From: Pseudomonas sp. WS 5079
Lineage (GTDB): Bacteria; Pseudomonadota; Gammaproteobacteria; Pseudomonadales; Pseudomonadaceae
Length of the DNA: 64,000 nt
Direction of reading: 5' to 3'
Assembly (NCBI RefSeq): GCF_012985465.1
Contig: NZ_JAAQWN010000014.1
Span: 62,001-126,000, forward strand
The position numbers and the translations under genes were made by a program. The notes under the pieces were generated by a model, which made no database searches, was not told where the DNA came from, and was given only the letters and a program-made list of their open reading frames with translations. Below are positions 16,927-34,664 of this stretch, one piece after another (positions within the stretch are counted from its first letter, which is position 1; each line of letters opens with the position of its first letter).

Positions 16927-18270
16927 CTAAACATTTGCCGCCGCCACCCGCAGGTTCATGCGCAAACCCTGCGTGCCGTGGCTGGCCCATAGCTGCCCGC
17001 CCTGCAACTGGAGGGCGCGGCGGGCAATGCTCAAGCCCAGGCCAAAGCCAGTGCCGGGTGCGCCGTCCAGGCGCAGGTAGGGTTCAAAAATCCGCTCCAG
17101 ATCGGCTTCATCGACGCCCGGGCCCTGGTCCTCGACGGTCAACAGCCACGTATCCCCTTCACGCTCGCCGCTCAAGCGGATGACGCCCCCTGGAGGTGAA
17201 TGGCGGATCGCGTTGCGCAAGACGTTTTCCAGGGCCTGGGCGAAACTGTTGAGATGGACCCTGATTTCACAATCACCGCCGACTTCGCACACCAGCGCCT
17301 GCAATGGCCAGTCCGTTTCGAAATGCGCGTCCTGCACCAGCGCTTCCCACACCGAGGCCACCCGCACGTCCTCAGACTGCAACCGGGGCTTTTCGGTATC
17401 CAGCCAGGCCAGGTTGAGGGAGTCATCCACCAGGCGCCGCATCTCCTCGACTTCCCGCGCCAGCCGTTGCTCCAACTGCTGGCGCGCCAGGCCGCTTTCG
17501 CTGGCGATTTTCAAACGGGCCAAGGGCGTGCGGATTTCATGGGACAGGGTGCGCAGCAGTTGGCGTTGCTGCTGCAGGCTCTGGCGCAGGCGTTCGGCCA
17601 TGTGCTCGTAGGCTCGCGCCAACTCACCCAGCTCATCGCCGCGTCGGGTCACCGAACTGCTGGCCAGCGGCGCCAGGTCACCGGCACTCAGGGCGTTCGC
17701 GCGCTCGCGCAATTCGTTCAATGGCAACACCAGGTGGCGATACAGCAACAGCCCCAGGCCCAAGGCCAACACCACCGGCACCACGCCGTGGGTAAACAGG
17801 TGCGTCCAAGGCGTGAGCCCCGGTGGCAGCAAGCGCTCGGGCAACTGCATGACCAAACGGCCGCGCTCCGGGTGCTGGGGGAAGGCGATGCTGACATAGG
17901 GCAGTTCATCCTCCAGACGCTTGCTCATGGGCCAACTGGGCTTGCGCATAAAGGTCAGGTGACTGACTTCGGCCGCCGTCAGCGGTTGGGTGCCGAGGCT
18001 TTGCAGGAACGGATCGAGCACACCGACCCAGGTCTGCTCGCGCTGTTGCAGGGCGAGTCGCCATTGCTCCACGGCCCGGGCATCGCCGGTGGCGGCCACC
18101 TCTTCGGCCTGGGCGGCGTAGGCACTCAGGGCATCGCGGTCGGGTTGTTCAAGAAAGTAAGTACTGCGCTCGACCTGCAAGCCCCAGCCCCACACCAACC
18201 ACACCAGCAGCAGGCAGAAACACACTTGCAGCAGTGCCATTTTCCACAGCAGTGGGTGCCGGCGCTGCAT
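16927..18270 (-). CDS. pfeS: Sensor histidine kinase PfeS
   Basis: 447 aa. Two membrane segments (about 12-32 and 180-200) enclose a periplasmic sensor. Then come HAMP (about 200-255), HisKA with the phospho-acceptor LSHEIRTPLARLKIA (His about 267), and HATPase with NAIRHSPPGG, DQGPGVDEADLERIFEPY and GTGFGLGLSI. It detects periplasmic ferric enterobactin and phosphorylates PfeR. The ATG shares one base with the pfeR stop (TAATG). Confidence 0.88.
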   Translation of the reverse strand: MQRRHPLLWKMALLQVCFCLLLVWLVWGWGLQVERSTYFLEQPDRDALSAYAAQAEEVAATGDARAVEQWRLALQQREQTWVGVLDPFLQSLGTQPLTAAEVSHLTFMRKPSWPMSKRLEDELPYVSIAFPQHPERGRLVMQLPERLLPPGLTPWTHLFTHGVVPVVLALGLGLLLYRHLVLPLNELRERANALSAGDLAPLASSSVTRRGDELGELARAYEHMAERLRQSLQQQRQLLRTLSHEIRTPLARLKIASESGLARQQLEQRLAREVEEMRRLVDDSLNLAWLDTEKPRLQSEDVRVASVWEALVQDAHFETDWPLQALVCEVGGDCEIRVHLNSFAQALENVLRNAIRHSPPGGVIRLSGEREGDTWLLTVEDQGPGVDEADLERIFEPYLRLDGAPGTGFGLGLSIARRALQLQGGQLWASHGTQGLRMNLRVAAANV

Positions 18271-18992
18271 TAGCTCAAGCCTTCGCACAGCAACACATAC
18301 CCCTGATGCCGCACCGCTTCGATGCGCACCCCTTGCAGGTTGATCGCCGCGAGCTTGCGCCGCACATTGCACACATGCACATCCAGGCCGCGATCCAGCC
18401 GGGTATAGGCGCGGTGCAACACATGCTGGTACAGGAACGCCTTGGACAAGGGTTCGCCGGCGTGTTCATGCAGGGTGCACAGCAAGCGGAACTCCGAACC
18501 GGTCAGGCCTGCCGGGCAGCCGTTGAACATGAGATCCCGGGCGCCTGCATCCAGGTCCAGCAATGGCGGCCTGCTGGCGGGTGCGCCGCGATCAAGTGCC
18601 ACACGCCGCAGCAACGCGTCGATACGCACATCCAGTTCGGCGAGGCTGAAAGGCTTGGGCAGGTAGTCGTCCGCGCCCTGGCTGAAACCGGTGATGCGAT
18701 CCTGCTCGGCGCCCAGTGCCGACATCAGAATCACCGGCGTACCCCGCTCGCTGCGCAAGCGCGCCAGTACTTTCAGGCCGTTTTCGTTGGGCAGCATGAT
18801 ATCCAGCAGGACCAGCTCGACCGCTGGATCCAGGGCCATGCTCAAGCCTTCATCGCCACGATGAGCACTGCTCAAAATGAAGCCGCGCCGGCTCAGATGG
18901 CTACAAAGGTGGGCGCACAGTTCGACGTCATCCTCGATGACCAGGATGCGTGCGGAAGAAGATGGTTTAGGTAGTGGATGATAACTGTTCAC
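18270..18992 (-). CDS. pfeR: OmpR-family response regulator PfeR
   Basis: 240 aa. The receiver domain has acidic EDD (about 20-22), phospho-Asp in LVLLDIMLPNENG (about 63-66), Ser switch and Lys in DDYLPKPF. The C-terminal winged helix ends RLDRGLDVHVCNVRRKLAAINLQGVRIEAVRHQGYVL. In P. aeruginosa it activates pfeA with ferric enterobactin. The start is GTG 18992, with only a poor SD; an upstream ATG is out of frame. It diverges from the coupled lipoprotein unit. Confidence 0.87.
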   Translation of the reverse strand: MNSYHPLPKPSSSARILVIEDDVELCAHLCSHLSRRGFILSSAHRGDEGLSMALDPAVELVLLDIMLPNENGLKVLARLRSERGTPVILMSALGAEQDRITGFSQGADDYLPKPFSLAELDVRIDALLRRVALDRGAPASRPPLLDLDAGARDLMFNGCPAGLTGSEFRLLCTLHEHAGEPLSKAFLYQHVLHRAYTRLDRGLDVHVCNVRRKLAAINLQGVRIEAVRHQGYVLLCEGLS

Positions 18993-21272: not shown

Positions 21273-22346
21273 TCACGGCTTGAGTTCAAACAACGCCGGC
21301 ATCGGCGGCCATTCGGAAGGCACCTTGCGAAAGTGGCTGAACCCGGCGGCTTGCGCCATTTGCCGTGCGCGCTTCTCGCCCATGAACGCCCCCAGCCCTG
21401 CCCCGCCGTGGGACAGTGAACAGGTCATGCAGTACAGGGTGCTCTGCGGGTACATCACTCGACCGAACAGGTTCATGTTCTCGTGAAGCTCATCGGACAG
21501 GTTGAGCTCAACCATCAGGTAGGTGCCGTCTTCGGCCGTCGCTGCGCGCAGGTCCTTGAGCATCTGCTGGGGATCGGTGGCATCGTGGATCACCACAAAG
21601 GTGGTCACAAAGTCGAATTGCTGGCCTCGCAGGGCATCCGAATCGTTCACTTCAAATTGCACCCGGTCACCGACCCCGGCGGCCTTGGCGTTGGCACGTG
21701 CCAGTTCGATGGAAGGCAGGTGGAAGTCGCAGCCGACAATACGGGCCTCGGGGTACGCCTTGGCCATGGTGATCGCCGCCAGGCCAGCACCACAGCCGAA
21801 ATCCAGCACGCTGCCGCCGGTCTTGAGTTTTTCTTCAACGCCGTCCAGGGAGGGAATCCAGTGTTGGACCAGGTAGTGCTTGTACCAAGGCATGGTCATG
21901 CGTTCCATGCCTTTCCAGGTTTCCAGCGGAAACGCCTCTTCGGCGCAACCACCGCCATGGCGAAAGGCTTCGATGACCTTGGGTGCCATGCTCACGAACG
22001 GCACACTCAGCTGGATGATCCCCCCGGCAAAATACGGCGAGTCTTCGTCGGCGAGTACCGGCACAAACTCGGCGGGCATCTGGTAGCGGCGGGTTTGCGC
22101 GTCGTACGTCACATAATTGCCGGTAACCATGCTGCCCAGCCATTCGCGCAAATAGCGTTGGTTGTAGCCACTCTTTTGCGCCAGTTGCTCCAGGGTCACG
22201 GCCTCGCCGTCGGCCAGTGTCTTGAACAAGCCAAGCTGGTCGCCGATGTAGAGCATCGCACCGCGCAGCGTGTTGCCGTAATCCTCCATGATCCGTGCGG
22301 AAAACTGCTGGACCTTGGATTTATCAACTTCCATAACGTTTGACAT
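21273..22346 (-). CDS. flcA: SAM-dependent methyltransferase, FlcA-like (fluopsin C biosynthesis)
   Basis: 357 aa. N-terminal winged-helix dimerisation domain (about 12-100, GDQLGLFKTLADGEAVTLEQLAQ) then a class I Rossmann methyltransferase with motif I VLDFGCGAG (about 180-188) and the acidic GCDFHLPSIELA. In fluopsin C synthesis a methyltransferase N-methylates the thiohydroxamate. It is last of five co-directional genes whose enzyme types and order match P. aeruginosa PA3515-PA3519. ATG 22346 has AAGGAG 6 bases upstream. The symbol is assigned by gene order. Confidence 0.82.
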   Translation of the reverse strand: MSNVMEVDKSKVQQFSARIMEDYGNTLRGAMLYIGDQLGLFKTLADGEAVTLEQLAQKSGYNQRYLREWLGSMVTGNYVTYDAQTRRYQMPAEFVPVLADEDSPYFAGGIIQLSVPFVSMAPKVIEAFRHGGGCAEEAFPLETWKGMERMTMPWYKHYLVQHWIPSLDGVEEKLKTGGSVLDFGCGAGLAAITMAKAYPEARIVGCDFHLPSIELARANAKAAGVGDRVQFEVNDSDALRGQQFDFVTTFVVIHDATDPQQMLKDLRAATAEDGTYLMVELNLSDELHENMNLFGRVMYPQSTLYCMTCSLSHGGAGLGAFMGEKRARQMAQAAGFSHFRKVPSEWPPMPALFELKP

Positions 22347-22391
22347 CTGTCTCTCCTTGATAAGATTGCAAGCCTTCTCAGTAAGCAATAG

Positions 22392-23840
22392 TCAGCGGGC
22401 CGTCACGTTGGACAGCACGTTATCGACAATGCGTTCGGACATCCCCAGATGGCTTCGGGGCTCGAACAGCCGCGCCAGGACGCCCGCATCCATGACAGCG
22501 ACAACCCGGGCATCGGCCTCGATCGCCGTGCGGATCGACACGTGATCGCGCTGGCTCGCCTGGGACACTTCGAAGATGATCTGGTAGGCACTGCTCTTGC
22601 CGAGCTTGCGGGCCATTTCGAACACCACGGCTTCGGTGCAGATCGCATCGCCATAGGCCTGGGCGGTGCATTCCATCTTCTTGACGTTAACGGTCAGCCC
22701 GTCGATGGTCTCGGTCAGGATCGAGAGTGCCATCAACGCATAGTGCGAAACGTCCGCCACCGCACACCATTCCAGGCGTGTGCCACGGTAATCGCGCTCG
22801 TGTTCGAGGATCATCGCATCCAGCGCCAACATGACCTGGGCCTTGGCCAACCGCGCCAGGACCACGACCTGCTCGCAGCCTTCGGGGTTGCGCTTGTGGG
22901 GCATGGTGCTGCTGCCAATCTGCTGGTCGCTCCAGCCCACTTCAACTTCGCCGATTTCCCAGCGATTGAGCGTGCGGATTTCGTCGGCCACGCGAGCCAG
23001 CGATGCCGTGACCATGGCCAAGGTGCTGACGAACTCTGCGACACGGTCTCGGGACACATGCCATCCCGCCAGGGGCACTTGCAGCGACAAGCGCTGCGCG
23101 AAGCGCTCAAGCATAGGCATCGCGTGCGGACCAAACGCTGCCATCGTGCCCACCCCACCAAACAGCTGCACCACCAGCACTCGCTGGCGGGCCTCGGCCA
23201 GGCGCTGGCGGTGGCGCAACAGTTCGTCGATCCAGCCGGCGACCTTGAGTCCGAAGGTGGTCGGCAACGCAGGGATCGAATGGGTCCTGGCGACCATCAG
23301 CGAATCCCGGTGCGCATCGGCCAGCGTCGACAGTTTGCCCAGCAAGGTCTCCAGGGCCAGGTCCATCGCGTCGAGGACGTCGCGCATTTCCAGGGACTGG
23401 GCGGTGTCCTGGATGTCCTGGGTGGTGGCGCCGTAGTGCACGAATTCACGGGCACTCGGGCTGCAGTTTTTTTGCAGGGCGCTCAGCAATGGCATCAGCG
23501 AATGGCCGGTGGCAGCCACGCCCTCGGCCAGCTGGCGCACATTGATACCCGACAGCAAGGCGGCTTTTTCGATTTCCAGGGCCGCCTCGCGCGGGATGAT
23601 ATTGACATCGGCCTGGGCCATGGCCAGCGCGGCTTCCACATCCAGCCAGCGCTGCAAGCGGCAGTGACTGCAGAAAATCTTGCGGCTCTGCGGGCCGGCA
23701 TAGCCTGAGCCATGGGTTTTCGAGTCGAGAATGTGGCTGTGTTCGTGGCGGCATTGCTCGCCGTCATGACCAAGGCCGAGGTGTTCAGAACGTGCGGTGC
23801 AAGACGCACGGGCTGCCATTTCCATCGTTTGCGAATCCAT
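22392..23840 (-). CDS. flcB: Fumarase/aspartase-superfamily lyase, FlcB-like (fluopsin C biosynthesis)
   Basis: 482 aa adenylosuccinate-lyase-type enzyme. The HYGATTQD motif (135-142), ARTHSIPALPTTFG (184-197) and flexible signature loop SSTMPHKRNP (310-319) are intact, so catalysis is expected. In the fluopsin route two such lyases act on a cysteine-fumarate conjugate: one forms it and one releases the product. The first about 35 residues are an unusual Cys/His-rich extension relative to its neighbour. ATG 23840 overlaps the upstream stop (TGATG). Confidence 0.83.
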   Translation of the reverse strand: MDSQTMEMAARASCTARSEHLGLGHDGEQCRHEHSHILDSKTHGSGYAGPQSRKIFCSHCRLQRWLDVEAALAMAQADVNIIPREAALEIEKAALLSGINVRQLAEGVAATGHSLMPLLSALQKNCSPSAREFVHYGATTQDIQDTAQSLEMRDVLDAMDLALETLLGKLSTLADAHRDSLMVARTHSIPALPTTFGLKVAGWIDELLRHRQRLAEARQRVLVVQLFGGVGTMAAFGPHAMPMLERFAQRLSLQVPLAGWHVSRDRVAEFVSTLAMVTASLARVADEIRTLNRWEIGEVEVGWSDQQIGSSTMPHKRNPEGCEQVVVLARLAKAQVMLALDAMILEHERDYRGTRLEWCAVADVSHYALMALSILTETIDGLTVNVKKMECTAQAYGDAICTEAVVFEMARKLGKSSAYQIIFEVSQASQRDHVSIRTAIEADARVVAVMDAGVLARLFEPRSHLGMSERIVDNVLSNVTAR

Positions 23841-25273
23841 CACATACCCTCCATCGCGTACTGGGGCTGACCGGGGTTTCCTTGGGGTGCCATCACCGCT
23901 TCAAGGCCTTCGCTTGAACAGCGGGGTATTGCTTTGTTCGCCACCAGGTCGACCATCTGTGCTGCAAGCCCGGTGTAGGTGGTCGGGTCAAGCAGGTCGT
24001 CGAGCGCTTGGCGGGTAAAACAGCCGTGCAGACGCTTGTCGTTGAGCAGGGCCTGGCGAAAAGAAGCGCCCGCGCCCTGGGCCTGCTGGGCGATTTCGTG
24101 GACCAGGTGATGGGCCGTCTGCTTGCCCAAGCGAGGCGCCAGCGCGAGCATCACCCGTTCCGACAGGATCAGCCCGCCCAGCAAATCCAGGTTGCTGCGC
24201 ATGCGCGCTTCGCGTACATCCAGCCCGGCCAGCAGCACGCCCTCCATACGGGCGAGCAAGGCACCGGCGTAGATGAACAGCTCCGGCAAGGCCGCCCATT
24301 CGATGCGCCACGTGGTGCCGTCGCGTTCATGCAGTTGGAACGCCGCATCGGTCAGCGCGAGCATCTGTGCGCGCACCAGCCGCGAAAGCGCGCTGATCAG
24401 ATCCACCGTCGACGGGTTTTGCTTGTGGGGCATGGTGCTGCTGCCCACCTGCCCTGCCCGGCGGCCTTCGCGCACTTCATCAATCTCGGTGCGCTGCAGG
24501 TGGTAGATCTCATTGGCGACCCGGCCCAAGGTCGCCGAAGCCTGGACCAGCAGCCAGGCCGCCTCCAGGATCCGGTCGCGGGCGCTGTGCCAACTGCTCA
24601 ACGGCGCCCCCAGGCCAAGGCTTTCCAGGGTCCGGCGCTGCACCTCAAGCCCCTGTGGGCCAAACGCCGCCAGGGTGCCCACCGCGCCGGTCAGGTTGCC
24701 CACCATTACCCGGGCATAGGCCTCATCGAAGCGCTCAAGGTGTCGATCGATTTCATCGACCCACACCGCGACCTTGTAGCCGAACGTGGTGGGCAGTGCT
24801 TGCTGCCCGTGGGTCCTGGCGACCATCGGAGTGTGCTTGTGCCGCAGGGCGAGCGTGAGCAAATGCCCACGAATCCCCCGCAGGCGCTGCAACACCAGGC
24901 CCCAGGCATCGCGGACCTGCAAGATAAGCCCGGTGTCGAGGATGTCCTGGGTGGTCACGCCGTAATGCACGTACTCACCCAAGCCATCGGCACACAAGGC
25001 CTCCAGGGCGCGAATGGTCGGCACCAGGATGTGCCCGGTTTCCATGCTCTCGCGCCCCAAGGCGTCAAGGTCGAGCAGCTCCACACTGGCCACCCGGGCG
25101 ATTTCCCGTGCCGCTTCGTGAGGGATGATGCCCATCTGCGCCTGGGTCGCCGCCAGCGCGGTTTCAACATCGAGCCACTTCTGCACCTGATTGGCATCAG
25201 AGAAGATCGCGGCAAATTCCGGGGACGAGTAAGCGCCCCCGTGGATACGGGACTCTGTTATATGACTCGGCAT
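23840..25273 (-). CDS. flcC: Fumarase/aspartase-superfamily lyase, FlcC-like (fluopsin C biosynthesis)
   Basis: 477 aa. It starts in the normal family way (ESRIHGGAYSSPEFAAIFSD), with HYGVTTQD (103-110), ARTHGQQALPTTFG and SSTMPHKQNP (278-287). It is a clear but diverged paralogue of the next gene, with which it overlaps. True purine PurB is unlikely because two copies lie beside diiron oxidases. Which of the pair condenses and which eliminates fumarate cannot be read from sequence. Thirty bases downstream of flcD. Confidence 0.83.
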   Translation of the reverse strand: MPSHITESRIHGGAYSSPEFAAIFSDANQVQKWLDVETALAATQAQMGIIPHEAAREIARVASVELLDLDALGRESMETGHILVPTIRALEALCADGLGEYVHYGVTTQDILDTGLILQVRDAWGLVLQRLRGIRGHLLTLALRHKHTPMVARTHGQQALPTTFGYKVAVWVDEIDRHLERFDEAYARVMVGNLTGAVGTLAAFGPQGLEVQRRTLESLGLGAPLSSWHSARDRILEAAWLLVQASATLGRVANEIYHLQRTEIDEVREGRRAGQVGSSTMPHKQNPSTVDLISALSRLVRAQMLALTDAAFQLHERDGTTWRIEWAALPELFIYAGALLARMEGVLLAGLDVREARMRSNLDLLGGLILSERVMLALAPRLGKQTAHHLVHEIAQQAQGAGASFRQALLNDKRLHGCFTRQALDDLLDPTTYTGLAAQMVDLVANKAIPRCSSEGLEAVMAPQGNPGQPQYAMEGM

Positions 25274-25302
25274 GTCTGGGTACTCGCGTTGTCCAGGGAG
25301 GG

Positions 25303-26289
25303 CTACTTAACGCGCTGCACGTGTGCCCAGACAGCGTCGTAATAAGCCCTCTCGAGCCGGAAATGCTGGGCCAGGGAGGTCAGGAATGAATTCTGGAACG
25401 CGAGGTCCGGAATACGCCGTGAGATCAGCGCCCACTCACGCTTGGCCCGCGGCGGGACCAGGCTGATATGCACCTCGTAGTACTCCGCGTCGTCCTGGCT
25501 CAGGCCAGCGTTGCGCAAGGCGTTGTACAGCTTGCCGTGATTGCCGGGGACCACCAGTTCGGTGATGTAGAACACCGCCAGGCCCCAGCCGACATCCGGG
25601 TTGCGAAAGCATCGGGCCCGGTTGTTCAGGTAGGCGACTTCCTCGGGCATGGTCGAGATGGCCTCGAAATCGGCAGACAAGCCCACGGCGCCGAGGAGCT
25701 TGGCCAACAGCCGGGGGTGGGAGCGCTGCTCGTCCTCTTCGCCCAGCTCGCCGTACAGGTAACGGCCAAGCGCGGCCGCCTCGTCCACGTCGGTCAGGTT
25801 GACCAGCAGGTCTGCGGCATCGCGGTACAGGCGGAAGGTGCGGAACCACTGGTGATGCAGGAACACCTGCAGTTGATCACGGGAGGCCTTGCCTTCAAAT
25901 ATGTACTGCGACATCGGGTGGTTTTCCCGCGACTGCGCGGCGATCTCTTCTTCCAGGCGCTGCTGGAAACCGGCTTCGGACAGGGGCGATGCCAGGTCCG
26001 CAGACGGCATGAAGCGCTCTTGCACGCTATAGATGGCATTGGCCAGCCAGCGCCGGGTCGAGGCTGTCGCAACGTCATCGCTCAGCGACAGGATGTACAA
26101 CAGTTGCTGGCACTGCGCGGCGTTCGCAGCATCGCCCTGGTGGCCCGATTCACACAGGGCGCGCAGCATATTGGCAGCGATTTCGATGCGGTTGAACGTC
26201 GCATCGGGTTTGAGCGCCTCGGCCAACAGGCGGGCTTCAGCGGTGTGAATATTCTGCAATTGCGGCAACGAGAAATTACGTGGGCTCAT
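25303..26289 (-). CDS. flcD: Heme-oxygenase-like diiron enzyme, FlcD-like (fluopsin C biosynthesis)
   Basis: 328 aa, all-helical HDO/iron-containing redox enzyme family. Probable metal ligands lie in FLHHQWFRTFRLY, in YGELGEEDEQRSHPRLL and in FYITELVVPGNHGKLYNAL (a Glu and a His four to eight residues on). The known pathway uses two such enzymes for decarboxylation/N-hydroxylation and methylene excision from the cysteine unit. ATG 26289 is chosen since GGAG lies 6 bases upstream; 26292 and 26301 are in-frame alternatives. Confidence 0.82.
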   Translation of the reverse strand: MSPRNFSLPQLQNIHTAEARLLAEALKPDATFNRIEIAANMLRALCESGHQGDAANAAQCQQLLYILSLSDDVATASTRRWLANAIYSVQERFMPSADLASPLSEAGFQQRLEEEIAAQSRENHPMSQYIFEGKASRDQLQVFLHHQWFRTFRLYRDAADLLVNLTDVDEAAALGRYLYGELGEEDEQRSHPRLLAKLLGAVGLSADFEAISTMPEEVAYLNNRARCFRNPDVGWGLAVFYITELVVPGNHGKLYNALRNAGLSQDDAEYYEVHISLVPPRAKREWALISRRIPDLAFQNSFLTSLAQHFRLERAYYDAVWAHVQRVK

Positions 26290-26328
26290 CATGTGCTCCA
26301 TTTTTTTGTTCTGGGGTCGCTGGGAGGA

Positions 26329-27324
26329 TCACGCGGACAGGCGTTGTGCCTGCATCTGCTGCCACAGGCTGTCGAAGTAGGCCTTGTTGATCTCGAAGTG
26401 ACGCTTGAGCGCACGCATGAACGTGCGCTGGAAGCCGTCATCGCTGGCGAACTTGGCAATCAGAGCCCACATTTCCTCGGTATCGATCTCATCCTGGGTG
26501 CCGTGCAGGCGGTGGAATTCACTAGGCCCCTCTGGCGCATCGAGGCGCTGCAACAGCTCATAGATGCGCCGATGGTTGACGCAACTGACCGACTCGACGG
26601 CGTACAGCAGCGCCAGTCCCCAGGCCACATCGGTGTGGCGCACACAACGAATGCGATTGTTCAGGTAGGCCTTTTCCAGGGGATGCAGTGCCGGGAAATC
26701 GATTGCCAACGGAATATCGAAATACTCCATGAGGTGGGCCAGCATCGCCGGGTGCGAGCGCTCAGGTGTCTCCGCCCCCGCTTCGCCGTAGAGGTTGCGG
26801 TAAAACACCGAGGCGTCCTCGATGGCTTCGAAGCGAAAGGCCAGTTCCGCCAACAGGCTGTAGAAGTTGTAGGAGCGGGTCCAGTGGTGTTCCAGGAAGA
26901 AACGCACGTCTTGCGCAGGCGGCGTGCCCTGGAACAGGTGCAGCGACATGGGGTGGTTGACCCGGCTGCGAGCGGCGATTTCAGCGTCGACCTGCTTGCG
27001 GAACTCATCCACCGGCAGCGCGGTGAAACTTGGCAGGTCGGCGGCGAACTCATCTTCGACGCGGTACACCTCACTGGCCATCCAGCGCCGGGTCGGCTCG
27101 GTGCGCGGATCGCCGGGAATGTGCAGTTGCAGCAGTGCTGACTGGTAGTGGGCGTAGGCGCCGGTGTCTCCCGACAGGCCTTGGCGGGTCAGGGCGAGCA
27201 GCGCGTCCAGCGCGCCAGTGACTTGGGCGTATTGCGCGCCGGGCTTTAAAGCATCAGCCATCAGCGCCGAAGCGTTGTTGCACTGATGGGCGTCCGAGCG
27301 TTGTTGCAGGGTAGCAGTATCCAT
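26329..27324 (-). CDS. flcE: Heme-oxygenase-like diiron enzyme, FlcE-like (fluopsin C biosynthesis)
   Basis: 331 aa paralogue of flcD. Shared positions include FFLEHHWTRSYNFY (about 142-155), YGEAGAETPERSHPAML (179-195) and LLYAVESVSCVNHRRIYELL (239-258), giving the same ligand spacing. First gene of the five-gene unit, 51 bases downstream of a CueR-type promoter. Proposed role: oxidation and decarboxylation of the conjugated cysteine. Four of the five genes downstream are separated by at most 46 bases. Confidence 0.83.
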   Translation of the reverse strand: MDTATLQQRSDAHQCNNASALMADALKPGAQYAQVTGALDALLALTRQGLSGDTGAYAHYQSALLQLHIPGDPRTEPTRRWMASEVYRVEDEFAADLPSFTALPVDEFRKQVDAEIAARSRVNHPMSLHLFQGTPPAQDVRFFLEHHWTRSYNFYSLLAELAFRFEAIEDASVFYRNLYGEAGAETPERSHPAMLAHLMEYFDIPLAIDFPALHPLEKAYLNNRIRCVRHTDVAWGLALLYAVESVSCVNHRRIYELLQRLDAPEGPSEFHRLHGTQDEIDTEEMWALIAKFASDDGFQRTFMRALKRHFEINKAYFDSLWQQMQAQRLSA

Positions 27325-27375
27325 TGATAACCCCTTGATCCTTGTTTTTATGATTTTTTGCGTACTCGAAAAAAA

Positions 27376-27406
27376 AGCCTAAAGGTTCCTCCAGTGGCAA
27401 GGTCAA
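27376..27406 (-). promoter_or_regulatory. MerR/CueR-type copper-responsive promoter of the flc operon
   Basis: Read on the minus strand: -35 TTGACC, 19-base spacer, -10 TAGGCT. The spacer is 2 bases longer than normal, the hallmark of MerR-family activation. It contains the imperfect dyad ACCTTGCC-ACTG-GAGGAACCT, close to the CueR pattern ACCTTCC-N-GGAAGGT. It ends 51 bases before flcE. In P. aeruginosa the equivalent unit belongs to the CueR regulon. Confidence 0.75.
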
Positions 27407-27502
27407 TACCTGTAGGACAATTCTTTTTAATAGAGTTGAAACAGCCAGCATCCATTGGTGATTCACTCGCCGATGGCTGACCAACGGCGAGGTGAACAGG
27501 CT

Positions 27503-28345
27503 TCAGGACGCCGCGGGAACCGTCACAAGAAATGGCACGGTACGAATCTGGTCGCCGCCCTTGAATTGAATCCACAGGGCGTAAGGGCCCGCATGCGCAG
27601 GTTTGGCATGCAGCATCAACTGCGCCGACACCGCGCCTGGCTCGCCATGCCCGGCGTGGGCGGCCTGCCCTGGCATTGGCGCCGCCATGGCATGCGCGTG
27701 CACGTAGTCCAGCTCATCGGTACTGACGAACACCGCATGGGCCGCCACCCCCAGGTAGGTGTCCAGGTCCTGGGCCGGCTTGCCATCCTTGAGCACCGTC
27801 AGCGACATCATGCTTTCGCTGCCGGCACGCAGGGCCGAAGTGTCCAACTTGACCGTGTAGGGCCCATCGCTACCTTGCTCCGGTTTGGCCGGCGCCTGGG
27901 CCACCGCCTCGGTGGCGCCCTGCACCGGCACCTCGAAGCGCACCACCTGCTGGCCGAGCCCGCTCGGTACGGCATCGGCATAGACGTAATAGGTGCCCGG
28001 CCGAGGAAACTTCATCGCGACCTTGAAACGACCGTCAGCGCCCAGCTTGGCCGCATGCTCATGGATAAAGCTGGTGAAATGGCTGTCGGTCGCCAGCACA
28101 TGAAGGCGCTGGGTCAGTTCTTCGTCAAACTGCACAATCGGTTGCCCGGTGGCCTTGTCGGTAAAGGCGATCGACAACTCACGTGTCAGCGGCCCGGTTT
28201 CCTTGACGATCAGCGCTCCCACGGCCTTTTCACTCTCGCCGGGCAAGGCGAACGTGCCTTTGATACTTTCCTGGGCAGCCATCGACGGCATTGCCGCCGC
28301 GCCTAGCACCGCCAGGCCAACGGTCAGAACCTGCTTGGTATCCAT
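27503..28345 (-). CDS. Periplasmic His/Met-rich protein of the copper island, hypothetical
   Basis: 280 aa with signal peptide (cleavage near SMA-AQES). Two Ig-like repeats of the type seen in secreted metal-operon proteins: repeat 1 around residues 75-140 (HFTSFIHEHAAKLG, GTYYVYADAVPSG) and repeat 2 around 160-275 (AHAVFVSTDELDYVHAHAM, PYALWIQFKGGDQIRTVPFLVTV). Between them is a His/Met/Pro stretch (AMAAPMPGQAAHAGHG) fit for copper binding. It follows opmE by 107 bases with no separate TTGACC-N19 promoter, so it probably reads from mexP. P. aeruginosa has a much smaller protein here. Confidence 0.75.
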   Translation of the reverse strand: MDTKQVLTVGLAVLGAAAMPSMAAQESIKGTFALPGESEKAVGALIVKETGPLTRELSIAFTDKATGQPIVQFDEELTQRLHVLATDSHFTSFIHEHAAKLGADGRFKVAMKFPRPGTYYVYADAVPSGLGQQVVRFEVPVQGATEAVAQAPAKPEQGSDGPYTVKLDTSALRAGSESMMSLTVLKDGKPAQDLDTYLGVAAHAVFVSTDELDYVHAHAMAAPMPGQAAHAGHGEPGAVSAQLMLHAKPAHAGPYALWIQFKGGDQIRTVPFLVTVPAAS

Positions 28346-28452
28346 ATGGGTAACTCCTCATTCGATAAATGGTGGCTTGCGCCAGGAAATCTGCCGCCTC
28401 GCCGTCCTTCGCCGAACACCGCAAGCACAGCGCTTGCGTACAACAACGGCGT

Positions 28453-29904
28453 CTAACGCAGCGCCGCAGCGCCGCTGCACACCTGCCCCGCCTGCTCGCA
28501 GATCTGCCAGCCACCGCCGAGCGCCTTGTAGATGCCGACCACCGCCAAGCGCTGCTCGGTGCGCGCCACGGTCAGTGCGCGGCGGCTGGTGAAGTCCGCG
28601 CGCTCTGCCTCCAGTACGTCCAGGTACACCCCCTCACCGTCCGTGAAGCGCGTGCGGGCCAACCTCGCCGCCTCGCGATTGGCCGCCGCCTCCAGCAGTC
28701 GCAGGCCCAGGGTGCTGCCCGCCGCACTGTTGGCCTGGAACGCGTCATCGGTTTCCTGCAGGGCGCGTAATACGGTCTGGTCGTAGCTGATCAATGCCGC
28801 CTGGGTGCGCGCCTCGCTGGCGGCAATCCGCGCACGTACGCGCCCAGTGTCCAGCAGCGACCAGCGAATGACTGGTGCAATAAAGTTCGACTGCATGCCC
28901 GAATCGCCCAAGGCGCCGAGGCTTCCGGCCAGCAGGCCGATGGAGCCCTGCACCTGGATGTCCGGATACAGACCGGCTGTTTCCACGCCGATCTGCGCGG
29001 TCTCGGCCGCCAGCACACGTTCGGCTGCGGCGATATCGGCGCGCCGGGCCAGCAAGCCGGCCGGGTCACCCACCTGCAGGGTGCGCAGGTTCAAGGTCTC
29101 ACGACCGGGCCTGGCCTGCGGTGGCTTGAACCCTTGCGGCGCCTGCCCCAGCAAGACCGCCAGTGCATTGGTAGTGGTTGCGCGACGCCGCTCAAGGCCG
29201 GGGGCGACCGCCTCGACATTGCGCAGCAAGGCCTCGGCTCGCAGCCGATCGAACTCGGTGGCGGCCCCCACACTGACCAAGTGCTCCACCAGGCCCAGGC
29301 TGTCGCGCTGGCTTTGACTGATGTCCGCCACCACCGCCTGCTCGGCTTCGACCCCTTGCAGCTCGAACCAGGTCGCGGCAACCGTGGCGGCAACGCTCGC
29401 CTGTACGCTGCGCAGCAACGCCTGGCGCGAGCCCGCCTGGGCCTGCGCGGCCTCCACCGAGCGCCGGACGCGGCCAAACAAGTCGATTTCCCAGGCGGCA
29501 TCCAGCGCTGCGCGCGTGGTTTCAAGGGAGCGCTGCTGGCCGGACGGCGTCTCGACTTCGCTGCGCTGTCGGTGCTCATACCCTAACGCGGCACCGCCGC
29601 TGGGCAAGAAGCCCTGGCGGCTCTCGCGCAGCATCGCCTTGGCTTCGTCGAGCCGCGCGGTGGCGATGCCGATATCGTGGTTGGCCGCCAGCGCCTGCTG
29701 GATCAGTTGGCTGAGGGCCGGCTCATCGAACACACGCCACCACTGCACCTCGACATCGCCCGTACCGAGACCGGCGATGGGTGCGCCGAAGCTCGCCGGC
29801 CGTTGCGCGGCGGGCAGCACCGGCGCGGAATAATCGGGCCCGACTGCGGTGCAGCCAGTCACCAGGAGCGACGACAACAGAAACGCTTGATAGGCCAATC
29901 TCAT
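28453..29904 (-). CDS. opmE: Outer-membrane efflux lipoprotein OpmE-like
   Basis: 483 aa TolC/NodT-family channel. Lipobox LLVTGC (Cys about 18) after a short signal peptide, then two repeats of the outer-membrane efflux fold (about 60-250 and 270-460: LIQQALAANHDIGIATARLDEAKAML and its counterpart). It completes the MexPQ pump. ATG overlaps the mexQ stop by 4 bases (ATGA), with GGAG upstream. Confidence 0.88.
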   Translation of the reverse strand: MRLAYQAFLLSSLLVTGCTAVGPDYSAPVLPAAQRPASFGAPIAGLGTGDVEVQWWRVFDEPALSQLIQQALAANHDIGIATARLDEAKAMLRESRQGFLPSGGAALGYEHRQRSEVETPSGQQRSLETTRAALDAAWEIDLFGRVRRSVEAAQAQAGSRQALLRSVQASVAATVAATWFELQGVEAEQAVVADISQSQRDSLGLVEHLVSVGAATEFDRLRAEALLRNVEAVAPGLERRRATTTNALAVLLGQAPQGFKPPQARPGRETLNLRTLQVGDPAGLLARRADIAAAERVLAAETAQIGVETAGLYPDIQVQGSIGLLAGSLGALGDSGMQSNFIAPVIRWSLLDTGRVRARIAASEARTQAALISYDQTVLRALQETDDAFQANSAAGSTLGLRLLEAAANREAARLARTRFTDGEGVYLDVLEAERADFTSRRALTVARTEQRLAVVGIYKALGGGWQICEQAGQVCSGAAALR

Positions 29905-32900
29905 GACGCGCTCTCCTCCAATTGCAGCTTGGGACTCGCGCCCTTGCGCTGCAAACGCAGGGCAAGGCTGCGCATCACCACATAGAACACCGGCGTCAGG
30001 AACAGACCGAACAGCGTCACCCCCAGCATCCCGGCAAACACCGCAACCCCCATGGCATGGCGCATCTCGGCCCCGGCTCCGCTGGCAAATACCAGCGGCA
30101 CCACGCCAGCGATGAACGCCAGTGAGGTCATCAGGATCGGCCGCAAGCGCAGTTGGCACGCGTGGATAACCGCTTCCAGCGGGCTGGCGCCTTCGGCTTC
30201 AAGGCTGCGGGCAAACTCGACAATCAGGATCGCGTTTTTCGCCGCCAGCCCCACCAGCACCACCAACCCGATCTGCACGAACACGTTGTTGTCGCCGTCC
30301 ACCAACCAGACGCCAATGATCGCGCTGAGCAGACACATGGGCACAATCAGCAAGACCGCCAGGGGCAGCAGCCAGCTGTTGTACTGCGCGGCCAGGATCA
30401 GGTAGGCCAGCAACACACACAGCGGGAAAATAAACAGAGCCGATGACCCGGCGAGCTTTTGCTGGTAGGTCAAGTCCGTCCATTCAAAGGTCACGCCCTC
30501 GGGCAGCACCTCCTGCGCCAGGCGCTCCATGAGCGCGACGGCCTGCCCCGAACTGACCCCCGGCATCGCTCCGCCGGAGATGTCGGCCGAGGGGTAGCCA
30601 TTGTAGTGAATCACCCGATCGGGTCCGGAACTCGGTGTGACGGTGACAAACGCCGACAACGGCAGCATGTCCCCGGCCGCGTTGCGCACCTGCAGGCGGC
30701 CGATGGCTTCGGCCTGCATGCGGTGGTCCGCGTCGGCCTGGGCCGTCACCTTGTAGGTGCGGCCGAAACGGTTGAAGTCGTTGACATACAGCGAACCGAG
30801 GTAGACCTGCAAGGACTCGAACACATCGGCCAGCCGCACCCCCTGGCTCTTGACCTGGGTGCGGTCGATATCGACATTCAACTGAGGCGCGTTGACGTCA
30901 AGGCTGGTCATCAACCCAGCGACCTGGCCCGACTCGGTGGCTTTGGTCATCAGCACCTGGGTCTGCTGCACCAGAGCCTGGAGCCCGACCCCGCCACGGT
31001 CCTCGACCTGCAGCTTGAAGCCGCCGGTCACCCCAAGGCCGGGCACTGGCGGCGGTGGGAATACGCCGAGGAAACCGTCGGGAATGTTCGCGAACTTGGC
31101 TTGCAGGCGCCCGGCGATGGCAACCGCCGCCATGTCCGCAGAGGTACGCTCTTTGAACGGATCAAGCATGATGAACATCACGGCGGCATTCGGTACGTTA
31201 ACGAAGCCGTTGACCGACAACCCAGGGAATGCCACCACGCTTTCGACCCCTGGTTCATCCAGGGCGATTTTCGACATTTGCCGCACCACTGCGTCGGTAC
31301 GATCCAGGGAGGCCGCGTTGGGCAATTGGGCGATGCCTACCAGGTAGTACTTGTCTTGCATCGGTACGAAGCCCGCCGGTACAGCACTGAAGCCGAACCA
31401 GGTCAGCGCCAGCAACCCACCATAAACCAACAGCGCCACGCCGCGACGGCCCACCACCTTGCGCACCGTGTTGCCATACGCCTGCGGTGCCCGCTGGAAC
31501 GGCCGGCTCAGCACCTGCACCATGTGCGCGGCGCGACCGCGCAGGCTACGCGGATCATGTACCACGGCGGCACCGCGCGGGCGCAGCAACAGTCCGGCGA
31601 GTGCCGGGCTGAGGGTCAGGGAGTTGACCGCCGACAGGATCGTGGAAATCGCGATGGTCAGCGCGAACTGCCGATAAAACTCACCTTGCAAGCCACTGAG
31701 GAAGGCCGTGGGGATGAACACCGCAGCCAGTACCGAGGTGATCGCAATGATCGGCCCGGTCACCTCGCCCATCGCTCGTCGCGCAGCCTGCGTCGGCTCC
31801 TCGCCGTTCTCGATATGCCGCTCGACGTTCTCCACCACCACGATTGCATCGTCGACCACGATCCCGATGGACAGCACCAGGCCGAACAACGACAGGGTAT
31901 TGAGGGAAAAGCCCATCAGATGCATGACCGCAAAGGTGCCGATAATCGACACCGGCACGGCCATCAACGGGATCAGGGATGCGCGCCAGTTACGCAGGAA
32001 CACCACCACCACCAGGACCACCAGTAGGATCGCTTCCATCAGGGTGATGGCCACTGACTCCAGCGATGCACGCACAAACACTGTCGGGTCATAGGCAATC
32101 CGCGACACCATCCCCTCGGGGAAGTTGGCCTCCAGGCGCTGCATGGTATCGCGCACCGCCTGCGCCACATCGAGCGCGTTGGCGCCCGGGCTCTGGATGA
32201 TCTGCAAGGCAACGGCCGGCTCGCCATCCAACAGGCTGCGCAACGCGTACGCATCGGCGCCCATTTCCACACGGGCCACATCGCGCAGGCGCGTCACCTG
32301 GCCGTTATCGCCGGTGCGGATGATGATGTCGCCAAACTGCTCCTCGTCCGTCAGGCGCCCGAGGGTATTGACCGTGACCTGGAATGCCGCACTGGAGTCA
32401 GGCGCCTGGCCGACCGAGCCGGCCGCCACTTGCACGTTCTGCTCACGCACGGCGCTGATCACGTCGCCTGCGGTCAAGCCACGGGCGGCGATCAGGTCCG
32501 GGTCGAGCCACAGACGCATGCTGTACTCGCCCGCACCCCACACCAGCACGTCGTTGATCCCCGGAATCCGCGACAGCTCATCGCGCACCTGGAGGTAGGC
32601 ATAGTTGGAGATATAGAGCGGGTCATAACGTTGGTCAGGCGACAGCAGGTGGACCACCATGAGGATGTCCGGGGAGGTCTTCTGCGTGACCACGCCGAGG
32701 CGCTGTACCTCTTCGGGCAAACGCGGCAGGGCCCGCGAGACGCGGTTTTGCACCTGGATCTGCGCCATGTCCGCGTTGGTGCCCTGGGCAAAGGTTGCGG
32801 TCAGGATCATGCGGCCGTCGGTCGCCGATTGCGACGTCATGTACAGCATGCCCTCGACCCCGGTGATCACCTGCTCAAGTGGCGCCGCCACCGTCTCGGC

Positions 32901-33077
32901 GATCACCTGGGGGTTGGCGCCCGGATAGGATGCGGTCACTTGCACGGTGGGCGGCGTCACGGCGGGGTATTCGCTGAGCGGCAAATGAAAGAAGGCCACG
33001 ATGCCAGCGATCATCATCAACACCGACAGCACGATGGCGAAGATCGGCCGGTCAATGAAAAAGCGTGGGAAGCTCAT
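29901..33077 (-). CDS. mexQ: RND multidrug/metal efflux transporter MexQ-like
   Basis: 1058 aa HAE1-type RND pump. N-terminal MSFPRFFIDRPIFAIVLSVLMM, two large periplasmic loops and 12 membrane helices. Proton-relay Asp pair in GIVVDDAIVVVENVERH (about 405-421) and the Lys-bearing GLAAKNAILIVEFARSLE (about 955). In P. aeruginosa MexPQ-OpmE is copper induced by CueR. Here its proximity to flc genes suggests export of the copper complex or of the free thiohydroxamate. Overlaps mexP by 4 bases. Confidence 0.9.
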   Translation of the reverse strand: MSFPRFFIDRPIFAIVLSVLMMIAGIVAFFHLPLSEYPAVTPPTVQVTASYPGANPQVIAETVAAPLEQVITGVEGMLYMTSQSATDGRMILTATFAQGTNADMAQIQVQNRVSRALPRLPEEVQRLGVVTQKTSPDILMVVHLLSPDQRYDPLYISNYAYLQVRDELSRIPGINDVLVWGAGEYSMRLWLDPDLIAARGLTAGDVISAVREQNVQVAAGSVGQAPDSSAAFQVTVNTLGRLTDEEQFGDIIIRTGDNGQVTRLRDVARVEMGADAYALRSLLDGEPAVALQIIQSPGANALDVAQAVRDTMQRLEANFPEGMVSRIAYDPTVFVRASLESVAITLMEAILLVVLVVVVFLRNWRASLIPLMAVPVSIIGTFAVMHLMGFSLNTLSLFGLVLSIGIVVDDAIVVVENVERHIENGEEPTQAARRAMGEVTGPIIAITSVLAAVFIPTAFLSGLQGEFYRQFALTIAISTILSAVNSLTLSPALAGLLLRPRGAAVVHDPRSLRGRAAHMVQVLSRPFQRAPQAYGNTVRKVVGRRGVALLVYGGLLALTWFGFSAVPAGFVPMQDKYYLVGIAQLPNAASLDRTDAVVRQMSKIALDEPGVESVVAFPGLSVNGFVNVPNAAVMFIMLDPFKERTSADMAAVAIAGRLQAKFANIPDGFLGVFPPPPVPGLGVTGGFKLQVEDRGGVGLQALVQQTQVLMTKATESGQVAGLMTSLDVNAPQLNVDIDRTQVKSQGVRLADVFESLQVYLGSLYVNDFNRFGRTYKVTAQADADHRMQAEAIGRLQVRNAAGDMLPLSAFVTVTPSSGPDRVIHYNGYPSADISGGAMPGVSSGQAVALMERLAQEVLPEGVTFEWTDLTYQQKLAGSSALFIFPLCVLLAYLILAAQYNSWLLPLAVLLIVPMCLLSAIIGVWLVDGDNNVFVQIGLVVLVGLAAKNAILIVEFARSLEAEGASPLEAVIHACQLRLRPILMTSLAFIAGVVPLVFASGAGAEMRHAMGVAVFAGMLGVTLFGLFLTPVFYVVMRSLALRLQRKGASPKLQLEESAS

Positions 33078-34240
33078 TGCACGCCCCCCATGACCAGCGG
33101 TGCATCCAACGGCGCGCCGTCGATGTTGGCGGCCAGCGGCGTCACCTGCATGCCGGGGCGCACCAGCCCCTTGACCACAATGCGCTCACCCGGCTGCAGG
33201 CCCTGCTCAATCACCCGCAGGCCGTTGGCCATCGGCCCCAGCTCGACGGGGCGGTATTCGGTCTTGTCGCCTGCGCCGACCACCAATACATAGCGGCGAC
33301 CCTGGTCAGTGCCGATGGAGTGGTCGGCCACCAACACCCGGGGTTGCGGCGCGCCGGTGTCCAGCTTGACCTTGGCGAACAGCCCCGGCGTCAGGCGCCC
33401 GTCGGGGTTATCGACCACTGCACGCGCACGCACTGTGCCGGTCTTGCGGTCGGCCGCATTCGCCAGGAAGTCCACCCGCCCGGCCCGCGCATAGTTTGCG
33501 TCGTTAAGCATCGCCACCATGACCTTGGCGGCCTTTTCCCCCTTGGACGCGGCATCCTCCCGAGTCGCGGCGAGCGAGCGCAGGTAGGTGCGTTCATCGA
33601 CATCGAAATACACATGCAACGGGTCAATGGAGACGATCGTCGTCAGCGGCGTCACCCCACGGGTGACGTAGTTGCCCTCGGTGACAAGGGCACGGTCCAC
33701 GCGACCGCTGATGGGCGCGGTGACACGGGTGTAACTCAAATCCAGTTGGGCGGCGTCCAGCGCTGCCCTGGCGGCATCAACCTGGGCCCTGCCGGCGTTC
33801 AGCGAAGCAATGGCAGTGTCGAGCCGATCACGCGCCACCACTTTTTTGGCGAACAGTTGCTCGGCTCGGCCATGCTCGGCCTGGGCCAGCAATGCGTTGG
33901 CCTGCGCCTCACGCAAGCGCCCCTTGGCAGCGTTCAGCGCGGCCTGGAATTCCCGTGGGTCAATCACAAACAAAAGACTGCCCTTGGCCACGGATTGGCC
34001 TTCGGGCACGCTGACCTGCTGCAGGTAACCACTGACACGCGGGCGCAGCTCAACCTGCTCAATCGCGGTCAAGGAACCGGTGTATTCGACAAACGGAGTC
34101 ACCGGCTGCGCAACCACCTCGGCCACCGGCACACCAGGCGGCTTGGCGGCATCAGCCACAGGCGCGCTCTCATTACAGCCACCCAACGTGAACACGACAG
34201 CTATCGCCACGGCGCCCAGGGTTATTCGCTTGCCGTACAT
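33074..34240 (-). CDS. mexP: RND membrane-fusion protein MexP-like
   Basis: 388 aa periplasmic adaptor and lipoprotein: lipobox TLGGC (Cys about 22). Order: lipoyl half, coiled-coil hairpin rich in Ala and Leu (about 95-165, QAALNAAKGRLREAQANALLAQAEHGRAEQ region), lipoyl half (TRVTAPISGRVDRALV), beta-barrel and membrane-proximal domain. First gene of mexPQ-opmE, 44 bases from a CueR-type promoter. Confidence 0.9.
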   Translation of the reverse strand: MYGKRITLGAVAIAVVFTLGGCNESAPVADAAKPPGVPVAEVVAQPVTPFVEYTGSLTAIEQVELRPRVSGYLQQVSVPEGQSVAKGSLLFVIDPREFQAALNAAKGRLREAQANALLAQAEHGRAEQLFAKKVVARDRLDTAIASLNAGRAQVDAARAALDAAQLDLSYTRVTAPISGRVDRALVTEGNYVTRGVTPLTTIVSIDPLHVYFDVDERTYLRSLAATREDAASKGEKAAKVMVAMLNDANYARAGRVDFLANAADRKTGTVRARAVVDNPDGRLTPGLFAKVKLDTGAPQPRVLVADHSIGTDQGRRYVLVVGAGDKTEYRPVELGPMANGLRVIEQGLQPGERIVVKGLVRPGMQVTPLAANIDGAPLDAPLVMGGVQ

Positions 34241-34272
34241 CGTGTACCTCCTTGTAATTTTCAGGACAAACC

Positions 34273-34320
34273 AACACTTGAGGTTTTATCCGGCTTGCCA
34301 TGAGGGGAAGGTCAAGTGTT
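34273..34320. repeat. 9-base inverted repeat bracketing the mexP promoter
   Basis: AACACTTGA (34273-34281) and its exact complement TCAAGTGTT (34312-34320) enclose the -10 element and 19-base spacer. The right arm overlaps most of the -35. This could be a second regulator site or a cruciform. It is not seen around the flc promoter. Confidence 0.6.
34285..34315 (-). promoter_or_regulatory. MerR/CueR-type copper-responsive promoter of mexPQ-opmE
   Basis: Minus-strand -35 TTGACC, 19-base spacer, -10 GATAAA. The spacer carries ACCTTCCCC-TCAT-GGCAAG, a good CueR dyad. It ends 44 bases before the mexP ATG. Confidence 0.78.
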
Positions 34321-34587: not shown

Positions 34588-34664
34588 TGGTCGGGACGGA
34601 GTGATTCGAACACTCGACCCCTAGCACCCCATGCTAGTGCGCTACCGGACTGCGCTACGCCCCG
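34588..34664 (-). tRNA. tRNA-Pro (anticodon GGG)
   Basis: 77 nt on the minus strand. Acceptor arm CGGGGCG pairs with CGTCCCG, then discriminator A and an encoded CCA. D-loop GCAGTCCGGTAGCGC, anticodon stem CTAGC/GCTAG with loop ATGGGGT (anticodon GGG at loop positions 3-5), T-arm GAGTGTTCGAATCACTC. Position after ihfA and a MerR gene matches other pseudomonads. Confidence 0.97.

Follow-up and report, generated by a model that had tools for sequence, protein, structure and literature searches.

A complete fluopsin C-type flc operon with CueR-type promoter signals in Pseudomonas sp. WS 5079

The window analysed here is a 64,000-nt stretch of the 6.33-Mb genome of Pseudomonas sp. WS 5079, and all coordinates are window positions. 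At 21273-27324 on the minus strand it contains five co-directional open reading frames (ORFs) without internal stops, which in order of transcription encode two heme-oxygenase-like enzymes (HDOs), two lyases and a methyltransferase, corresponding to flcE-flcD-flcC-flcB-flcA, the gene set for the copper-binding antibiotic fluopsin C. The HDO genes flcE (26329..27324) and flcD (25303..26301) encode proteins of 331 and 332 aa, each matching the Pfam families HOASN and Haem_oxygenas_2. The lyase genes flcC (23840..25273) and flcB (22392..23840) encode proteins of 477 aa and, counted from an ATG, 482 aa, both with Lyase_1 and ADSL_C, and the flcB start overlaps the flcC stop (TGATG, 23840). The last gene, flcA (21273..22346), encodes an S-adenosylmethionine methyltransferase with a match to Methyltransf_31, among others, and a winged-helix (winged helix-turn-helix) N-terminus; judging from conservation across loci, its start is more likely the conserved ATG at 22346 than a TTG at 22388. 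Genes of the mexPQ-opmE type lie directly upstream of the pathway (28453-34240).

We compared the five products with those of a P. aeruginosa-type flc copy (L049) from another genus of the same family. Identity over nearly the full length is 79% for FlcE, 77% for FlcD and for both lyases, and 83% for the methyltransferase, and the L049 copy has the same five genes in the same order and on the same strand. Five such genes in one order exclude chance as an explanation, and the complete five-enzyme operon of fluopsin C type proposed in the first-pass annotation stands. The flc genes of P. aeruginosa are, as we take it, PA3515-PA3519; our comparison with that species rests on the L049 copy and the solved P. 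aeruginosa FlcD. On this basis P. aeruginosa flcABCDE is alike in the five enzymes, their order and strand, the mononuclear-iron motif of FlcD and the SS-loop of the lyases and, as seen in L049, also in the CueR-type promoter and the adjacent mexPQ-opmE, whereas it differs in the slot of copZ1 (PA3520), which in the window is held by an ORF that we call orf280. Together, the gene order, the 77-83% identity, the structure match of FlcD, the intact residues and the CueR-type promoters support the view that the window operon is orthologous to the published fluopsin C pathway. Since the pathway is known from P. aeruginosa, the window copy adds a good, though ordinary, example; the compound itself was isolated in older work, from Pseudomonas spp. 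as well as Streptomyces (PMC6824035). Among the papers listed by our literature search, whose coverage left out most subscription papers, none dealt with flc in fluorescens-group strains. The closest named flc loci are those of P. haemolytica, P. lactis, P. khavaziana, P. libanensis and one P. fluorescens strain, and since their FlcD proteins are 94-95% identical to that of the window, we take the host for a P. fluorescens-group strain. Residues and promoters were compared across 17 flc loci including the window, 16 of them distinct since two (L013 and L054) share their sequence.

The window FlcD matches the solved P. aeruginosa FlcD (3bjd, 8w1q) with 541 bits. The P. aeruginosa enzyme has mononuclear iron and the motif E-H-E-H-V-R, which is strongly predicted in only 1 of 150 HDO groups (PMC11363339). 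In the window this motif reads E185-H195-E248-H278-V282-R285 (P. aeruginosa numbering plus 4), and it is found in 17 of the 17 loci. Furthermore, all 15 residues tested are identical to the set given in PMC11363339, that is, in P. aeruginosa numbering, the metal ligands, V278 and R281, and the active-site and substrate residues R121, Q147, R150, Y177, Y220, R224, H251, Y270 and Y271. Given this identity, a mononuclear-iron dioxygenase is expected. The first-pass annotation had taken both HDOs for diiron enzymes; a diiron FlcD is rejected here, since its last two ligand places, V282 and R285, do not fit the dimetal motif E-H-E-H-(D/E)-H and the P. aeruginosa protein is given as mononuclear (PMC11363339), which leaves at most FlcE as a dimetal enzyme. 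The 'NH' that it quotes among the HDO ligand segments contains no metal ligand, its His in FlcD being H251 of the substrate site (PMC11363339). A lack of diiron ligands in FlcD, which had been named as evidence that would speak against the pathway, would misfire, since FlcD is mononuclear by motif.

The ligand positions of FlcE are E181-H191-E244-H274-D278-D281 (FlcE numbering). The first four are in register with FlcD and D278 is present, so that five of the six positions of E-H-E-H-(D/E)-H are matched. The sixth position is Asp281 in every one of the 17 loci, giving the motif E-H-E-H-D-D. In profile alignments with BesC (7twa), 4-aminobenzoate synthase (9pj4) and HrmI (9n1a), H191, E244, H274 and the acid at +4 are in register with all three proteins and E181 with HrmI only; the last ligand is a His in all three, whereas FlcE has D281 aligned there and the FlcD motif ends with V and R. 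Asp can bind metal.

Both lyases contain GSSTMPHK(R/Q)NP, which fits the SS-loop GSSxxPxKxN named in PMC13411527, and the SSTMPHK loop reported earlier as intact in the two proteins is indeed present in each as GSSTMPHK. Which of them is FlcB and which FlcC was assigned, provisionally, by operon order. Both lyases also score on the models of XcbD (447-479 bits) and nitrosuccinate lyase (217-280 bits), as might be expected of a different HDO/lyase pathway that merely resembles flc, such as a route of the coenzyme M or nitrosuccinate type, but these scores fall under the cut-offs of 600 and 650, respectively. The window has in common with flc both the set of five genes in its order and the motif E-H-E-H-V-R, and the plasmid relatives of FlcB are less than 39% identical among the 40 of 193 records listed. 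A different thiol/fumarate pathway is largely ruled out by synteny, and we regard it as very improbable.

In P. aeruginosa, the CueR regulon includes copZ1/2, copA1, mexPQ-opmE and PA3515-3519 (PMC7922089, PMC12833586), the last described as CueR-regulated hypothetical proteins (PMC7922089). The window has a CueR-type promoter on the minus strand before flcE (27376..27406), composed of TTGACC, a 19-bp spacer with a dyad (27383-27403) and TAGGCT, and another on the same strand before mexP (34285..34315), with TTGACC, a 19-bp spacer (dyad at 34292-34312) and GATAAA. The pattern TTGACC-19-TANNNT precedes flcE in 17 of 17 loci, at 69-384 bp from the approximate start (farthest in L010 and L052). 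All eight loci with the upstream region in view have the mexP element, the mexP start lying outside the locus in three more, and the L049 copy, from TTGACC through GATAAC, is identical to the site published for P. aeruginosa. In the whole host genome, a strict form of the pattern matches three times, and its reversed control not at all. Two of the matches are those at flcE and mexP, and the third is some 40 bp upstream of a copZ-like ORF that adjoins a copA-like ORF and cueR. The cueR gene was named from its model, on which it scores above the cut-off (175.7 versus 147.4 bits), and the copZ- and copA-like genes beside it from their MTCGHC and MTCASC motifs. These sequence signs suggest CueR control of the flcE and mexP promoters, as in P. 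aeruginosa, and give backing to the copper link that the first-pass annotation had assumed.

According to PMC11363339, FlcB joins cysteine and fumarate, FlcE generates an oxime with release of CO2, FlcD removes the oxime carbon in the form of formate, FlcC breaks the C-S bond and FlcA N-methylates, and the roles of FlcB and FlcC are given likewise in PMC13411527. With the enzymatic steps, the product and the action of CueR at these promoters carried over from the P. aeruginosa literature, Cu(I)-loaded CueR would switch on both flc and the adjacent pump genes mexPQ-opmE. FlcB would add cysteine to fumarate, FlcE, an HDO with a probable dimetal site, would form an oxime from S-succinyl-cysteine, releasing CO2, and FlcD, with its mononuclear iron, would cut out the oxime carbon, which leaves as formate. 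FlcC would then cleave the C-S bond to give the thiohydroxamate and return fumarate, FlcA would N-methylate the thiohydroxamate, and two of the N-methylated ligands would chelate copper to form fluopsin C. MexPQ-OpmE may export the compound, as co-regulation and adjacency suggest. The fluopsin C pathway, as these genes had first been interpreted, remains the best reading in view of their order, identity, residues and promoters and of the FlcD structure match, and we put at roughly 0.9 the probability that a P. fluorescens-group strain has here an intact flc operon, orthologous to the published one, switched by CueR together with MexPQ-OpmE and making fluopsin C.

The same enzymes might mainly have another use or product, such as free thiohydroxamate, an iron complex (which we take to be fluopsin F) or a ligand that mainly binds surplus copper, all of which would be compatible with the favoured chemistry; the genes fix the ligand and not the metal. 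A homeostatic role would suit the promoter type shared with the copZ-like gene and the adjacent, probably copper-linked orf280. However, the P. aeruginosa flc enzymes make the copper complex (PMC11363339), and PA3515-3519 are CueR-induced in that species (PMC7922089); copper induction favours the copper complex, and we consider another main use or product unlikely, if still worth keeping in mind.

Several points weigh against the fluopsin C interpretation. The enzyme functions are drawn from papers later than the primary fluopsin C report (Patteson 2021). FlcE departs from E-H-E-H-(D/E)-H at the sixth ligand, as does its L049 ortholog, and since the latter also has D281, this residue is no sign of decay. 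CueR boxes with ≤3 mismatches occur 4 times in the window versus 10.0 expected, that is, with no enrichment, and those with ≤2 mismatches twice versus 1.0 expected, a count of 2 being reached in 23 of 100 shuffles. Moreover, the strict pattern used for the genome was composed from the two window sites after inspection, so that only the copZ hit is independent. As the window boxes are not enriched, the weight of the promoter evidence rests on their place, spacing and conservation and on the copZ hit. Finally, both lyases pass an NCBIfam 'adenylosuccinate lyase' subfamily model (743 and 714 versus a cut-off of 626 bits), the lyase in the FlcC position is also above the NCBIfam purB cut-off (337 versus 326 bits), and no flc-specific model is among the NCBIfam matches of the window proteins. 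The models that the two lyases pass being only general 'adenylosuccinate lyase' ones, the pathway would go unnoticed in a plain annotation.

The five flc genes occur in the window order in all ten of the loci L005-L014, which come from P. haemolytica, P. lactis, P. khavaziana, P. libanensis, P. paracarnis, P. gessardii, P. fontis, P. spelaei and two P. fluorescens strains. Among sampled genomes, FlcD was found at E below 1e-100 in 4 of 199 from the genus and FlcE in 7 of 398 from the family, the host being included in both counts. In a phylum sample of 398 genomes only the host genome was positive, so that in this sample, searched without iterative profiles, flc was not found outside the family. 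FlcD had no match on plasmids at E≤1e-20. Such a patchy spread would suit a silent or decaying copy, in which the operon is open but unexpressed or one step is dead, and some relatives may indeed be damaged: the flcA match of the P. paracarnis contig (L009) has an internal stop, and FlcC of the P. lactis locus (L006) has an odd N-terminus, each possibly reflecting decay or mis-assembly. Intact copies exist in other loci. In the window, however, all five genes are open, and the active-site residues and promoter elements are conserved, which makes a silent or decaying copy improbable. On the fluopsin C reading, environmental fluorescent pseudomonads would have a complete pathway preceded by promoter signals of a copper switch, and they may offer non-aeruginosa strains for its study. 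The host genome has two further heme-oxygenase-like (PF14518) genes away from the window, at C14:10759-11211 and C34:174980-175477 (L003 and L004).

FlcB contains a Cys/His segment, C30-x-HEHSH...C57-S-H-C60 (C-x-HEHSH-x20-CSHC), which is invariant in 17 of 17 flc-linked FlcB proteins, the residues before it being variable. The complete segment is absent from all nine aligned relatives, namely FlcC, two lyases adjacent to a phosphosulfolactate synthase (by context XcbD-type), one each from a Salmonella plasmid and from Pantoea, a lyase encoded by the host genome and three others whose genomes belong to the family or order. The Salmonella plasmid lyase, which has the highest bit score (334) among the 40 plasmid matches listed for FlcB, has the C30, C57 and H36 positions, and the host-genome relative has C57; part of the set thus predates flc. 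In a cysteine-handling enzyme of a copper-induced pathway, this segment could be a metal site. We tentatively propose a lineage-specific site in FlcB (C30, H32, H34, H36, C57, H59 and C60), serving Zn(II) activation of the cysteine thiol or Cu(I) gating, together with a modified E-H-E-H-D-D centre in FlcE for the oxime-forming oxidation, and we regard this proposal as speculative. If Cu(I) gating of FlcB were true, flux as well as transcription would follow copper, and the FlcB segment and the FlcE Asp ligand provide testable leads on pathway control and on the FlcE mechanism. A structure model of FlcB built from 11 sequences was too poor to use (mean pLDDT, predicted local distance difference test, 49.1), and the literature search, with the primary fluopsin C paper outside its coverage, found no publication on the segment. 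The Salmonella plasmid cluster with this best-scoring listed relative (L075, 4323-10644) has ThiF/HesA and MoaD/ThiS sulfur-carrier genes beside the lyase and possibly represents another thiol-fumarate chemistry.

Between opmE and flcE lies orf280 (27503..28345, minus strand), encoding 280 aa with an N-terminus that by eye resembles a signal sequence. It has no Pfam or NCBIfam match at E≤0.001, its likeness to YtkA (E=0.0067) being weak and below the cut-off, and a single-sequence structure model was too poor to use (mean pLDDT 50.4). It is present in 4 of the 398 sampled family genomes, three of which are among the seven with FlcE, and was not found in any of the ten loci L005-L014. In three of these (L010, L011 and L012), the ORF between pump and flc resembles a copper P-type ATPase (MTCASC motif), whereas the window has orf280 there; L013 has a similar gap between pump and flc. 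At L053, an orf280 homolog follows Cu-ATPase-like and CopZ-like ORFs, the latter of 71 aa with an MTCGGC motif. We rejected orf280 as the ortholog of PA3520 (CopZ1) on account of its 280 aa and of this much shorter CopZ-like ORF beside its homolog. Plasmid records matching orf280 number 120; of four neighbourhoods of such distant homologs that were inspected, three have an adjacent copper/heavy-metal P-type ATPase, and the fourth has a cation efflux protein and no such ATPase. We read orf280 as a probably secreted, periplasmic protein with a likely link to copper.

The pump genes, all on the minus strand, comprise a mexP-type membrane fusion protein gene (33074..34240, 69% identical to L049 in its product), a mexQ-type resistance-nodulation-division transporter gene (29901..33077, 86%) and an ORF for an opmE-type outer membrane factor (28453..30159, 69%), whose start is likely near 29904. 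In nucleotide comparison, the P. lactis locus L006 shares with the window only 21273-27426, and mexPQ-opmE was not found in the fetched upstream stretches of L006, L009 and L014. Conversely, L068, from a genome that is not among the FlcE-positive ones (G491), matches 27498-34317, that is, mexPQ-opmE and orf280 without flc. In these relatives, as judged by such comparisons, pump and pathway behave as separate cassettes. On the other side of flc, at 16927-18992, the window has a two-component system that scores far under the cut-offs of heavy-metal and copper sensor models and is mostly without a match in the closely related L050. Some 270 bp separate the mexP promoter from a tRNA-Pro(GGG) (34588-34664). 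The 17 loci scanned with ARAGORN, L068 among them, were all without a predicted tRNA. In L068 (16885-18013), 52 bp match the 3' part of the window tRNA exactly and, by eye, a piece of an integrase-like ORF is present, and a tRNA-linked acquisition or integration hotspot beside the pump cassette is plausible.

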